The translations under genes and the position numbers were made by a program. Shown here one piece after another: positions 4,766-11,799 of a stretch of 40,175 bases of DNA (position 1 is the first letter of the stretch; each line of letters starts with the position of its first letter). Under the pieces are notes generated by a model that did no database searches, was not told the DNA's origin, and saw only the letters and a list, made by a program, of their open reading frames with translations. The stretch comes from Gemmatimonadota bacterium (GTDB taxonomy: Bacteria > Gemmatimonadota > Gemmatimonadetes > Longimicrobiales > RSA9): assembly GCA_007126035.1 (NCBI GenBank), contig SLCC01000181.1, positions 1-40,175 of the forward strand, written 5' to 3'.

Positions 4766-5284
4766 CTAAGGTCGCCCCGGACCCGTCCCGGGGGCCTGGC
4801 GGCCCCCGCGCATGCCCCGGACCTGATCCATCATCTGCATCCTCATGACCAGGAACATGGCGTGCTGGCGAGGGTCCAGGAATTCCGCCAGGGCCGCGTC
4901 CTCGCGCCGCGCCAGCGCATGCTCCTGCTCCCGCATCGCCGACGTCTGATCGAGCAACCGCTGGTAGGTCGCCATGGGCGTGTCCTGCGCCCGCACGGCC
5001 TGCATTATCTCGCCCCGGAGCTGCCGGCTCTCTCGTGCCAGCTCCCGCCGTGCTTCGGCCCCGGTATGGATCACCTGGTGGAGACGCTGTTGCTGGGCAT
5101 TGCTGAGTGCCATGCTCTCGGCGGCGCGGGCCACGAACTGCCGGTGGAACTGCTGTTCCAGTTCTGCCCGGCGCTCCTGGGCCGCCTCGTGTCGCGGGCG
5201 TTGACCTCTGGTCGGAACCTCCTGGGCGACAGTCGCCAGAGGCGAGAGCGCCAGCACCAGCCCGATCAAGACAGCATTCCTCAT
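4766..5284 (-). CDS. Spy/CpxP-like periplasmic protein
   Basis: This is a 172-aa exported protein. An N-terminal signal peptide (residues 1-20, ending ATVAQ) precedes a charged, mostly helical domain. Two LTxxQ-type helix segments can be seen: SNAQQQRLHQVI near 60 and LDPRQHAMFLV near 145. A Gly/Pro/Arg-rich tail ends the protein. Length, helix content and paired motifs match the Spy/CpxP/metal-resist superfamily of periplasmic chaperones and metal sensors. The start overlaps the anti-sigma stop (ATGA, 5284-5281). In CnrYXH-type systems a protein of this fold feeds metal signals to an anti-sigma/ECF pair; a similar role here is inference, and a periplasmic chaperone is the alternative. Confidence 0.75.
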   Translation of the reverse strand: MRNAVLIGLVLALSPLATVAQEVPTRGQRPRHEAAQERRAELEQQFHRQFVARAAESMALSNAQQQRLHQVIHTGAEARRELARESRQLRGEIMQAVRAQDTPMATYQRLLDQTSAMREQEHALARREDAALAEFLDPRQHAMFLVMRMQMMDQVRGMRGGRQAPGTGPGRP

Positions 5285-5790
5285 GACTCCAGCTCCCGCA
5301 ACAGGTACTCCAGCTCCTCCACCGACAACTCGCTCAGCACGGGCTGATCGGCGATGAACAACCCGTCGGCCGGCCAATCGCCGTAGGGATCGTATTCCTC
5401 GAAGGCCACGAGGTCCGGGGCCTGGTCGACGTCGCTCGTGTCCGGAGCCTGGACGCCGAGCCATATCCCCACCGCTGCCGCAGCGGCGGCCAGGGGCACG
5501 GCCCACGGACGCCAGCGACCGCGCCAGCGCCGTTGAGGCGAGATGACCCCACCGGCCCGCTCCGGCGCGACCGGCCGCGCTGCTTCCCGCACGGCGCTCC
5601 TGACCCTGTCCTCGAGTCCGGCGGGCACCTCGAGAGGTGCCGCCTTCAATGCCGCGATGGTGCGAAGCGCCTCTCCGCACTCCTCGCAGTCCGCCAGATG
5701 CGCGTCCAGCCGTGCCGAGCGCTCGGGCTCCAGCACGCCCGCCGCTCGCTCCAGCAGCGCGTCAGCGAAGAACTCGCACCCCATGTTCAT
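5281..5790 (-). CDS. Zinc-finger transmembrane anti-sigma factor
   Basis: This is a 169-aa membrane-anchored regulator expected to hold the ECF sigma factor encoded just upstream. The cytoplasmic N-terminus has the ZAS pattern Cys5 ... HLADCEEC, that is one Cys, then His-x3-Cys-x2-Cys. One transmembrane helix lies near residues 95-115 (WAVPLAAAAAAVGIWLGV). The acidic C-terminal part would be periplasmic. It overlaps the sigma gene by ATGA (5790-5787) and the Spy-like gene by ATGA, so all three are probably translationally coupled. The nearby Met3 could also be the start. Assignment rests on motif and context. Confidence 0.85.
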   Translation of the reverse strand: MNMGCEFFADALLERAAGVLEPERSARLDAHLADCEECGEALRTIAALKAAPLEVPAGLEDRVRSAVREAARPVAPERAGGVISPQRRWRGRWRPWAVPLAAAAAAVGIWLGVQAPDTSDVDQAPDLVAFEEYDPYGDWPADGLFIADQPVLSELSVEELEYLLRELES

Positions 5791-7793: not shown

Positions 7794-8909
7794 TCACACT
7801 TGCGCCATCGCCTCGATGAAACGATCGAACAGGTAGATGGAATCATGGGGGCCAGGAGCAGCTTCAGGATGGTACTGGACGCTGAAGACCGGAAGCTCCC
7901 GGTGCTCGAGGCCCTCTACGGTCCCGTCGTTCAGGTTCACATGCGTCAGGCGCAACCCAGGCGCTGCATCGATGCCCACGCCTTCGCCGCCTCGCACCGC
8001 GAAGCCGTGGTTCTGGGCGGTGATCTCGACGGCGCCGTCGCTCAACCGGCGGACTGGGTGGTTACCGGCCCTGTGGCCATACCTCATCTTGAATGTCGTA
8101 CCGCCAAAGGCTCTGGCTACCAGCTGGTGGCCCAGGCAGATGCCTAAGACGGGGATACCGTCCTCGGCGGCCCGCCGGATTGTCTCCAGTGCGTGGACCA
8201 CCGCCTCCGGGTCACCAGGGCCGTTGGATACGAACAATCCGTCAGCGCCAGAATCCAGGATCTCCTCGAAGCGCGTGTCCCTGGGCACGGCCCGCACCCG
8301 GCAGCAGCGCTCAGCCAGCAACTCGGCAGATCTGCTCTTCATGCCGAAGTCGTACGCGACCACCAGGAACCGCTCCTCCCCGGCCGGCGGCACTTCGTAC
8401 GGCTGGGACGTAGAGACCATGCCGGTCAGGTCCAGCCCTTCCATTCTCGGGTGGGCCGCCAGGCGCTGGCGCAACGAATCCTCGGAGACCGCGGCCGAGG
8501 CCAGTGCCGCCCGCATGGCGCCGGCCGACCGGATGTGACGGGTGAGGGCGCGGGTGTCCACCTCGGACAGCGTCACCACCCCGTTGCGTCTCAGGTAGGA
8601 GGAGAGCGACTCCTGAGATCGCCAGCTCGAGTGGACCAGGCTCAACTCGCGGACAACGAAGCCGGCGACGTGCGGTCGAGCCGACTCCGCATCCGCCGGC
8701 GCTACACCATAGTTGCCGATGTGAGGGGCGGTCATGGCCACTATCTGACCGGCGTAGGAGGGGTCGGTCAAAATCTCCTGATAGCCGGTCAACGAGGTGT
8801 TGAACACCACCTCGCCCAGGGCCACACCCTCGGCGCCCGCCATCCGACCCTCGAAGATGCGGCCGTCCTCGAGCAGTAGATAACCTGGGGGTTGGTCACG
8901 TAATCTCAT
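7794..8909 (-). CDS. carA: Carbamoyl-phosphate synthase small (glutaminase) subunit
   Basis: It hydrolyses glutamine and channels ammonia to CarB for carbamoyl phosphate, the precursor of arginine and pyrimidines. The N-terminal CPSase domain spans about residues 8-140 (LLEDGRIFEG, TGYQEILTDPSY). The class I glutamine amidotransferase domain follows. Cys258 (GICLGHQL), His347 and Glu349 (YHPEA) form the triad. With the ATG at 8909 the protein is 371 aa, close to the family norm; an in-frame ATG at 8924 would add five residues. It is transcribed divergently from the RNase HI-like gene. The large subunit gene carB is not in this window. Confidence 0.95.
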   Translation of the reverse strand: MRLRDQPPGYLLLEDGRIFEGRMAGAEGVALGEVVFNTSLTGYQEILTDPSYAGQIVAMTAPHIGNYGVAPADAESARPHVAGFVVRELSLVHSSWRSQESLSSYLRRNGVVTLSEVDTRALTRHIRSAGAMRAALASAAVSEDSLRQRLAAHPRMEGLDLTGMVSTSQPYEVPPAGEERFLVVAYDFGMKSRSAELLAERCCRVRAVPRDTRFEEILDSGADGLFVSNGPGDPEAVVHALETIRRAAEDGIPVLGICLGHQLVARAFGGTTFKMRYGHRAGNHPVRRLSDGAVEITAQNHGFAVRGGEGVGIDAAPGLRLTHVNLNDGTVEGLEHRELPVFSVQYHPEAAPGPHDSIYLFDRFIEAMAQV

Positions 8910-9050
8910 GGGCCCCGCGAACATATCGCTTCGATGACGGTCGGGCCAGACCCACGGCACCATCCTCTCTCGGCCCCACCCTGGCGTTGGCTCCACCGAT
9001 CAGTACCTTTCCGCCTCCGCCGAATCTGTTCCAAGGCGCCGGGAGTTCCT

Positions 9051-9632
9051 GTGAAGCATCTGGTCTACATCTACGCGGATGAATCGTGTCTCGGGATACA
9101 GTACACGGACAGGCCGTCGCCCGGGGGAGCCGGTGGGCTGGTCCAGGTCTGGAAGGATGAGCGCTGGGTCCGCCGAGACTACTGGATCAGCGAGCCGGCC
9201 ACTACCAACAACCGGATGGCATTGCGCAGCGCGATAGAACCGCTACGCGCGCTCAAGGAGCCCTGCCGCGTGATCTTCACCTCCGACTCCGAGTACCTGG
9301 TCAGGGGGATGAGGGAGTGGGTCCACGGATGGATCCGGCGAGGCTGGAAGCGGAAGGGCGGCGCCGTGGAGAACCTGGATCTATGGCAGGAGCTGGTGGA
9401 CGTCGCCAAACGTCATCAGGTGGACTGGCGGTGGGTACGAGGACACGCGGGTCATCCCATGAACGAATTCGCCAACTGGCGGGCCATCCGGGCGGCCAAG
9501 GAGCAGAGCGACTCGGGCGGACTGGTGCCGTCCAGTTTCGAGGAGTGGCTCGAGGCGGAGCGGCAGAAGGAGCGGTACCTGGACTTCTTCGAGTTCGAGC
9601 CGCCACCCCGGGACGACCTCCAGAGCCGTTGA
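9051..9632 (+). CDS. RNase HI-like protein with altered catalytic residues
   Basis: The 193-aa product aligns by eye with E. coli RNase HI across the whole fold (VYIYADESCLG, TTNNRMALRSAIE, TSDSEY, GWKRKGG, VENLDLWQ, VRGHAGHPMNE). That enzyme cleaves RNA in RNA-DNA hybrids using Asp10, Glu48, Asp70 and Asp134. Here Asp10 and Asp79 are kept, but the Glu48 position is Ala57 and the Asp134 position is Asn142. A short insertion (about residues 16-22) follows the first Asp, and an acidic tail follows residue 150. The GTG start at 9051 has GGGAG five bases upstream. It may be a weak nuclease, a binding protein or a relic; the open frame argues it is expressed. Confidence 0.8.
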   Translation: MKHLVYIYADESCLGIQYTDRPSPGGAGGLVQVWKDERWVRRDYWISEPATTNNRMALRSAIEPLRALKEPCRVIFTSDSEYLVRGMREWVHGWIRRGWKRKGGAVENLDLWQELVDVAKRHQVDWRWVRGHAGHPMNEFANWRAIRAAKEQSDSGGLVPSSFEEWLEAERQKERYLDFFEFEPPPRDDLQSR

Positions 9633-9716: not shown

Positions 9717-10400
9717 TCACCCATCGGTCACCGCCGGGCTCCAGCTCCTGTCGAAGACCCGGCAGATCCCGTCGATGACTCGATCCTGGACCTCTGCCGG
9801 GTCCACCTCCCTGCCCAGCAACCGCTCCATGGAGGTGACGCCGTGGCTCCTGATGCCGCAGGGGATGATGGCGTTGAAGAAGCCCAGGTCCGTTGCCACG
9901 TTCAGGGCGAAGCCGTGGGACGTGATCCAGCCACTGGAGACCCTGACCCCGATGGCCGCCAGCTTCTCCTGGTCGACCCAGACGCCGGTCATGCCGGGCA
10001 GCCTGGCTGCGTCGATGCCGAAGGTGGAGACAGCCAGGATCAGGGTCTGCTCCAGGTCCCGGATGTAGCGGTGGACGTCTTTCCGGTCGGGCTTCAGGTC
10101 CAGGATTGGATATCCCACCAGCTGGCCGGGCCCGTGATAGGTGACATCGCCGCCCCTTCCTGTTTCGTGGAGCTCGATCCCCACCAGCCTTCGCTCACCC
10201 TCATCCAGGAGTACGTGACTGGCGTCGGAGCAGCTGCCCATGGTGATGACGTGGGGGTGTTCCAGGAGCAGGAGCTGGTCGGCGACCAGGCCGGCCCGCC
10301 GCTCCCGGACCAGCCGCTCCTGTAGCTCCAGGGCCCGGCCATAGGGGACCAGGCCCAGGCGCGAGACCGCCAGCTCCCGCGCCTCCTGCTCCCGCCACAT
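9717..10400 (-). CDS. lipB: Octanoyl-[ACP]:protein octanoyltransferase
   Basis: It moves the octanoyl group from acyl carrier protein to the lipoyl-domain lysine, the first step of endogenous lipoylation; LipA then inserts sulfur. The 227-aa protein has the family signature RGGDVTYHGPGQLVGYPI. It also has the conserved lysine in DQEKLAAIG and the nucleophilic cysteine in IIPCGI. The ATG at 10400 lies four bases after the stop of the E2 gene, whose lipoyl domain is an expected substrate, so the enzyme and its target are probably co-transcribed. lipA is not in the window. Confidence 0.94.
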   Translation of the reverse strand: MWREQEARELAVSRLGLVPYGRALELQERLVRERRAGLVADQLLLLEHPHVITMGSCSDASHVLLDEGERRLVGIELHETGRGGDVTYHGPGQLVGYPILDLKPDRKDVHRYIRDLEQTLILAVSTFGIDAARLPGMTGVWVDQEKLAAIGVRVSSGWITSHGFALNVATDLGFFNAIIPCGIRSHGVTSMERLLGREVDPAEVQDRVIDGICRVFDRSWSPAVTDG

Positions 10401-10404
10401 TACT

Positions 10405-11799
10405 CTATGCTTCCTCCGGGAAGGTTTCCAGCAGCTCCTTGAGCCGGGCCATGAAGCGGGCTGCATCGGCGCCGTCCACTATCCGGTGGTCATAGCCCAG
10501 GGAGAACATGGACATCAGGCGTATGGCGATCATGTCGGCGCCGTCCACCTCGATCACCACCGGCCGCTTCTCGATGGCGCCGGTGCCCAGGATCGCCGCG
10601 GTCCCTTCCGGGATGATGGGCATGCCCACGTAGGTCCCGAGGACACCCGGGTTGGTGATGGAGAATGTGGCGCCCTGTATCTCATCGGGCTTGAGCTTCC
10701 GGTCCCGGGCCCGCCCCGCCAGGTCGATGATCCGCTTCGACAGGCCGATCAGAGTGAGCTCTTCGGCTTCTCGTATCACCGGCACGATGAGTCCCGGGTC
10801 CAGGTCCACGGCAATGCCCAGGTTGACGCTGCCGCGTAGCACCAGCTTGTCTCCGGAAACGGTGCCATTGACCCTGGGGAACTCCTTCAGGGCCCGGGCC
10901 ACCGCCCAGGCGACGAAGGAAGTGACGCTGACGCGCACCCCCTGCTCTGACCACCGGGCCTTGCTGGCGCGGCGGATCCGGTCGATGCGGGTGAAGTCGA
11001 TCTCGATGAACGAATGGACATGTGGCGCAACCCGCTTCGCCAGCACCATGTGGTCGGCTGTCAGCCGGCGGATTCGGTCCATGGGCTCGACCCGGTCGCC
11101 CTCACGGATCGGCCACTCCGGATGCTGCACCTCGCGGTAGAACCGGTCCCAGATGTCCGCTCCCGCCGCCGGAGCCGGTTCCCGGGCCGGTGGCGCAGTC
11201 GGTTTCGGCTCCGGCGCCGCTTCCTTCGGCGGCTCCTCCTCGCGGCGCTCGATGAAGGACATGATGTCTTCCTTCGTCACCCGGCCGCCGCGGCCGGTGC
11301 CTTCCACGCGAGACAGGTCCACCCCGTGCTCTGCGGCTATCCGGCGCACCAGGGGCGACGATCGCCGCCGCAGCCGCTCCTCGGCCGTCTCAGGGGCGCC
11401 GTCCCCCTCCTCCTCGGCGGCCTCCGCAGCCGGCGCTTCCGCAGCCGGCGCTTGCGCAGGCTCCTGTCGGGGCGCCTCACCTGCCACCTCGGCTCCAGTT
11501 TCCGGCGCGGAGGCCGGCTCCGCCGCTTCGGCCTCCGCCTCGGCCGCCCCGGCAGCACCGTCGGTGTCGATGAAGGCCACCACGGTCCCTACTTCTACGG
11601 TCGCCCCCTCCTCGACCTGGATATCTACCAGCGTTCCCGCGGTTGGAGCCGGTATCTCCGCGTCCACTTTGTCGGTGGAGATCTCGAGGATGGGCTCGTC
11701 TCGCTCTACGACGTCTCCTGGCTGCTTCAGCCAGCGCGAGACTGTACCCTCGGCGATCGACTCGCCCATCTGCGGCATCGGAACTTCGATCTTTGGCAT
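10405..11799 (-). CDS. 2-oxoacid dehydrogenase E2, dihydrolipoamide acyltransferase
   Basis: This is the core subunit of a pyruvate or branched-chain 2-oxoacid dehydrogenase, moving acyl groups from lipoate to CoA. The 464-aa protein has one lipoyl domain (residues 1-78, lipoyl Lys44 in STDKVDA). An Ala/Pro/Glu-rich flexible linker (about 82-140) leads to a peripheral subunit-binding domain (about 143-180, SSPLVRRIAAEHGVDL). A second linker and the catalytic domain (about 235-460) follow, ending with the active-site motif YDHRIVDGA. The family also includes 2-oxoglutarate E2, but the E1alpha/E1beta neighbours argue for a pyruvate or branched-chain complex. No E3 gene is present here. Confidence 0.93.
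   Translation of the reverse strand: MPKIEVPMPQMGESIAEGTVSRWLKQPGDVVERDEPILEISTDKVDAEIPAPTAGTLVDIQVEEGATVEVGTVVAFIDTDGAAGAAEAEAEAAEPASAPETGAEVAGEAPRQEPAQAPAAEAPAAEAAEEEGDGAPETAEERLRRRSSPLVRRIAAEHGVDLSRVEGTGRGGRVTKEDIMSFIERREEEPPKEAAPEPKPTAPPAREPAPAAGADIWDRFYREVQHPEWPIREGDRVEPMDRIRRLTADHMVLAKRVAPHVHSFIEIDFTRIDRIRRASKARWSEQGVRVSVTSFVAWAVARALKEFPRVNGTVSGDKLVLRGSVNLGIAVDLDPGLIVPVIREAEELTLIGLSKRIIDLAGRARDRKLKPDEIQGATFSITNPGVLGTYVGMPIIPEGTAAILGTGAIEKRPVVIEVDGADMIAIRLMSMFSLGYDHRIVDGADAARFMARLKELLETFPEEA

Follow-up and report, generated by a model that had tools for sequence, protein, structure and literature searches.

A Gemmatimonadota type 1 RNase H of the LC9/DEDN type, with a glutamate beside the first catalytic aspartate, probably in place of Glu48

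In the canonical RNase HI of E. coli (rnhA), which has the DEDD active site, two Mg2+ ions are bound by a small set of ligands, Asp10 and Glu48 for metal B, and Asp10, Asp134 and the carbonyl of Gly11 for metal A (PMC8900815). Because this carbonyl touches metal A, the side chain of residue 11 adjoins the metals. Crystal structures with Mn2+ exist for the E. coli RNase HI mutants E48A, D134A and E48A/D134N. For the metagenome-derived LC9-RNase H1, structure-based mutagenesis reportedly located the second glutamate on strand beta-1 instead of helix A, next to the first aspartate and thus as in RNase H2, in an enzyme that otherwise behaves like an RNase H1. The structure was deposited as 'Crystal structure of LC9-RNase H1, a type 1 RNase H with the type 2 active-site motif' (PDB 4IBN), and the title of the corresponding paper speaks of an 'atypical DEDN active site motif' (FEBS Lett 2013).

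The gene described here (rnhA, LC9/DEDN type; 9051..9632, + strand) lies in a 40,175-nucleotide stretch of DNA, analysed whole and called the window below, that makes up one of the 218 contigs of a 3.88 Mb Gemmatimonadota genome. Its frame is open throughout and, from a GTG start, encodes 193 aa; an in-frame ATG at 8934 lies upstream and outside the conserved protein, and its use would create an overlap with carA. The neighbours are housekeeping genes, namely carA (7794-8996, -) and lipB (9717-10466, -), and beyond lipB there are genes matching the E2 and E1 components of 2-oxoacid dehydrogenase. Elsewhere in the window, a 304-aa frame (4766-5680, -), flanked by genes resembling malate dehydrogenase and an ECF-like sigma-70 factor, has no Pfam match.

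In a Pfam search, RNase_H (PF00075, 4.7e-29) was the sole family matched by the 193-aa protein, with no match to the RNase HII family (PF01351), and its top NCBIfam model was RNase HI PRK00203 (5.9e-43), at 146 bits, under the curated cut-off of 160 bits. The first-pass annotation had described an RNase HI homologue that keeps Asp10, Asp79 and the His and has Ala for Glu48 and Asn for Asp134, and alignment bears this out. The protein shares with canonical RNase HI the fold, Asp10, Asp70, His124, the TTNNRM motif and the GHAGH loop, whereas it differs from it in carrying Ala for Glu48, Glu for Gly11 and Asn for Asp134, and in having an insertion and a C-terminal extension. We rejected the canonical DEDD class on the absence of Glu48 and Asp134 and on the sub-threshold PRK00203 score. 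RNase HII (rnhB) resembles the window protein in having a Glu right after the first catalytic Asp, and the motif of the genome's own RNase HII, VDEAGRG, likewise has adjacent Asp and Glu. However, it belongs to another family, and the window protein matches the type 1 family only and scores as RNase HI; assignment to RNase HII was rejected, the genome's single PF01351 hit being on contig C48.

By sequence, the top PDB match is 4ibn_A (E 2.2e-59), with the runner-up far behind (4.6e-37). LC9-RNase H1 is about 60% identical to the window protein over 164 residues, and the two are identical at all four catalytic positions (ADES, NRMAL, TDS, NEYAN): both have the Asp-Glu-Asp-Asn set with Glu right after the first Asp. 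In both, Ala occupies the position of Glu48, and the C-terminal extensions begin similarly. The window protein differs in a slightly longer insertion after CLG and in having Ile16 instead of Asn. An AlphaFold2 model built from 52 sequences (pLDDT 94.7) again placed 4ibn first among PDB folds (E 3.9e-22, 58% identity, rmsd 1.7). In this model, residues 4-13 form a strand, so that Glu11 is predicted to sit on strand beta-1 directly after Asp10.

Residue equivalences were taken from an alignment of the 193-aa protein to solved RNases HI (E. coli numbering). Conservation was scored over 92 aligned clade sequences: 90 loci drawn from families f1 to f7 and f9, plus LC9 and the window protein. Asp10 (9078..9080, +), the first catalytic carboxylate and the equivalent of E. 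coli Asp10, is invariant in all 92. It is followed by Glu11 (9081..9083, +), the putative relocated glutamate, where canonical RNase HI has Gly11; the motif reads ADESCLG, versus TDGSCLG in canonical enzymes. Glu11 and Ala57 (9219..9221, +), which occupies the E. coli Glu48 position within TTNNRMAL, are each found in 92/92 sequences and are paired without exception, the 92 being genes that were read with the diagnostic positions present and selected by having both residues. Asp79 (9285..9287, +; E. coli Asp70) and His132 of RGHAGH (9444..9446, +; E. coli His124) are invariant, and position 142 (9474..9476, +; E. coli Asp134), an Asn in the window protein, is Asn in 60/92 and Asp in 32/92. The C-terminal extension (residues 152-193; 9504..9629, +) has a near-invariant Trp166, and its first part is common to LC9-RNase H1.

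Ala57 and Asn142 are thus real, but the earlier wording that the enzyme is 'missing two catalytic carboxylates' goes too far: the glutamate has apparently moved to Glu11 rather than been lost, and at the fourth position Asn and Asp switch within the clade. This alternation fits the statement, made in that annotation, that Asn can be tolerated at 134 in the E. coli enzyme. Glu11 had been overlooked, and the anomaly is explained because the residue after Asp10 is Glu, as in LC9.

We consider it very likely that the gene encodes the cell's working type 1 RNase H and belongs to the established LC9/DEDN type, with catalytic activity and metal-ligand roles that we infer from LC9. By this analogy, two divalent metal ions would be held by Asp10, Glu11, Asp79 and Asn142, and Glu11 on strand beta-1 would replace the Glu48 that E. 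coli RNase HI carries on a helix, in a role parallel to that of the Glu after the first Asp in RNase HII. It had been suggested to look for another rnhA or rnhB; the PF00075 match was the only one across the 218-contig assembly, and one RNase HII is present. That the relocated glutamate confers on this clade's sole PF00075 RNase H an RNase H2-like property that canonical RNase HI lacks (e.g., cleavage at junctions or at single ribonucleotides), with switching between Asn142 and Asp142 tuning metal use, seems very unlikely to us.

To the suggestion of a lineage trait the phylum gives a clear answer. PF00075 was matched in 376 of 395 genomes sampled from Gemmatimonadota, nearly always once, and the pattern DESCLGN is present in 87 of 93 clade loci. 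Across the full residue table, no sequence mixes the Glu11/Ala57 and Gly11/Glu48 states, L003 aside, and the canonical comparators have Gly11 with Glu48. L003, from a close relative of the window protein (Gemmatimonadetes bacterium, 64%), shows Pro after the Asp; we do not count it as an exception, as the gene is cut at a contig end and the other fragment in the same genome reads HVDESCLGNQ. Judged from these alignments, the Glu11/Ala57 arrangement is a lineage trait and the rule in Gemmatimonadota. From families f8, f10 and f11 came nothing closer than remotely related RNase H-like proteins, which carry Gly11 and a Glu at position 57.

On a tree built without the diagnostic columns, parsimony gave one change each for Glu11 and Ala57 and at least 13 for Asn/Asp142, the latter number being approximate, given the poor resolution of many forks and the few canonical sequences sampled. 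LC9 nests inside the phylum-wide clade, in the f5 part and beside an f5 genome. Three rows labelled as canonical that fall inside the clade (L077-L079) were rejected as canonical enzymes, since these genes are truncated and show a gap at position 11. The DEDN arrangement thus looks fixed in most of the phylum, with a single inferred glutamate switch and many switches between Asn142 and Asp142. Given the Asp in 32/92 clade members, Asn at the fourth position is not strictly defining for the LC9 type.

In one order, three genomes (G284, G248 and G190; loci L037, L038 and L039) have no detectable DEDN gene. The RNase H that they encode is a canonical DEDD enzyme whose N-terminal extension contains cysteines. 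This suggests gene replacement, the alternatives being incompleteness or contamination of the metagenome-assembled genomes. Two DEDN RNase H1 copies occur in G141 (L066/L095) and in G169 (L072/L094), and those of G141 differ at position 142, one having Asp and the other Asn. Such paired copies could reflect strain mixture in the assembly.

These data also bear on other ways of reading the substitutions. With E. coli as the sole reference, an Ala in place of Glu48 together with an Asn in place of Asp134 would point to a catalytically dead homologue that binds hybrids; a hybrid-binding protein was one of the three options raised in the first-pass annotation. We consider this very unlikely and find the proposal unsupported: Glu11 never varies and always goes with Ala57; Asp10, Asp79 and His132 are equally fixed; LC9, which has the same residues, was deposited as an active-site-motif variant; and the genome carries no further PF00075 gene. 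The idea of a re-sited acid fared better in part, in that the glutamate appears to be relocated, to Glu11. The site proposed for it, an insertion after the first Asp, does exist (about 5 residues after the CLG motif in the alignment to solved RNases HI, within residues 16-24; 9096..9122, +), and its Asp20 is near the first Asp in sequence. However, the segment is variable and holds no conserved acidic residue, part of the insertion is absent from many members, and position 20 is Asp in only 32/92 sequences and otherwise Gly, Glu, Ala, Lys or others. Since Asp20 is unconserved, we exclude a replacement acid in the insertion as extremely improbable.

An assembly of 218 contigs could in principle carry sequencing or assembly errors at the codons for Ala57 and Asn142. 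The probability of this is practically negligible, because Ala57 is fixed and Asn142 and Asp142 alternate in relatives; Asn142 is the majority state, many independent genomes are involved, and Ala57 and Asn142 also have their counterparts in the crystallised LC9 protein.

Our survey of the spread of this type covered Gemmatimonadota, genomes around a Halomonas relative, plasmid and phage records, and viral contigs. Among the 299 genomes around the Halomonas relative, the DESCLGN pattern hit two, each time in a short frame that has nothing to do with RNase H. Plasmid and phage records yielded only matches below 60% identity (best about 45%), and the viral contigs searched held no LC9-like member. 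Some IMG/VR contigs (L144-L150) encode a NADAR domain fused to an RNase H-like domain (e.g., L145: PF08719, 3e-30, and PF00075, 8.5e-13). All four catalytic acids are apparently absent from this RNase H-like domain (motifs VEGSA, NRMAL and HSSCT, with no Asp134 equivalent), and from its motifs the viral fold looks truly dead, unlike the window protein.

Overall, the apparent anomaly is removed, and the arrangement had already been described in 2013 for LC9-RNase H1; the modest addition made here is the distribution of the DEDN arrangement across the phylum. An active-site residue can move within the fold while the family is retained, and annotation that checks the E. coli positions alone would wrongly call such enzymes inactive.
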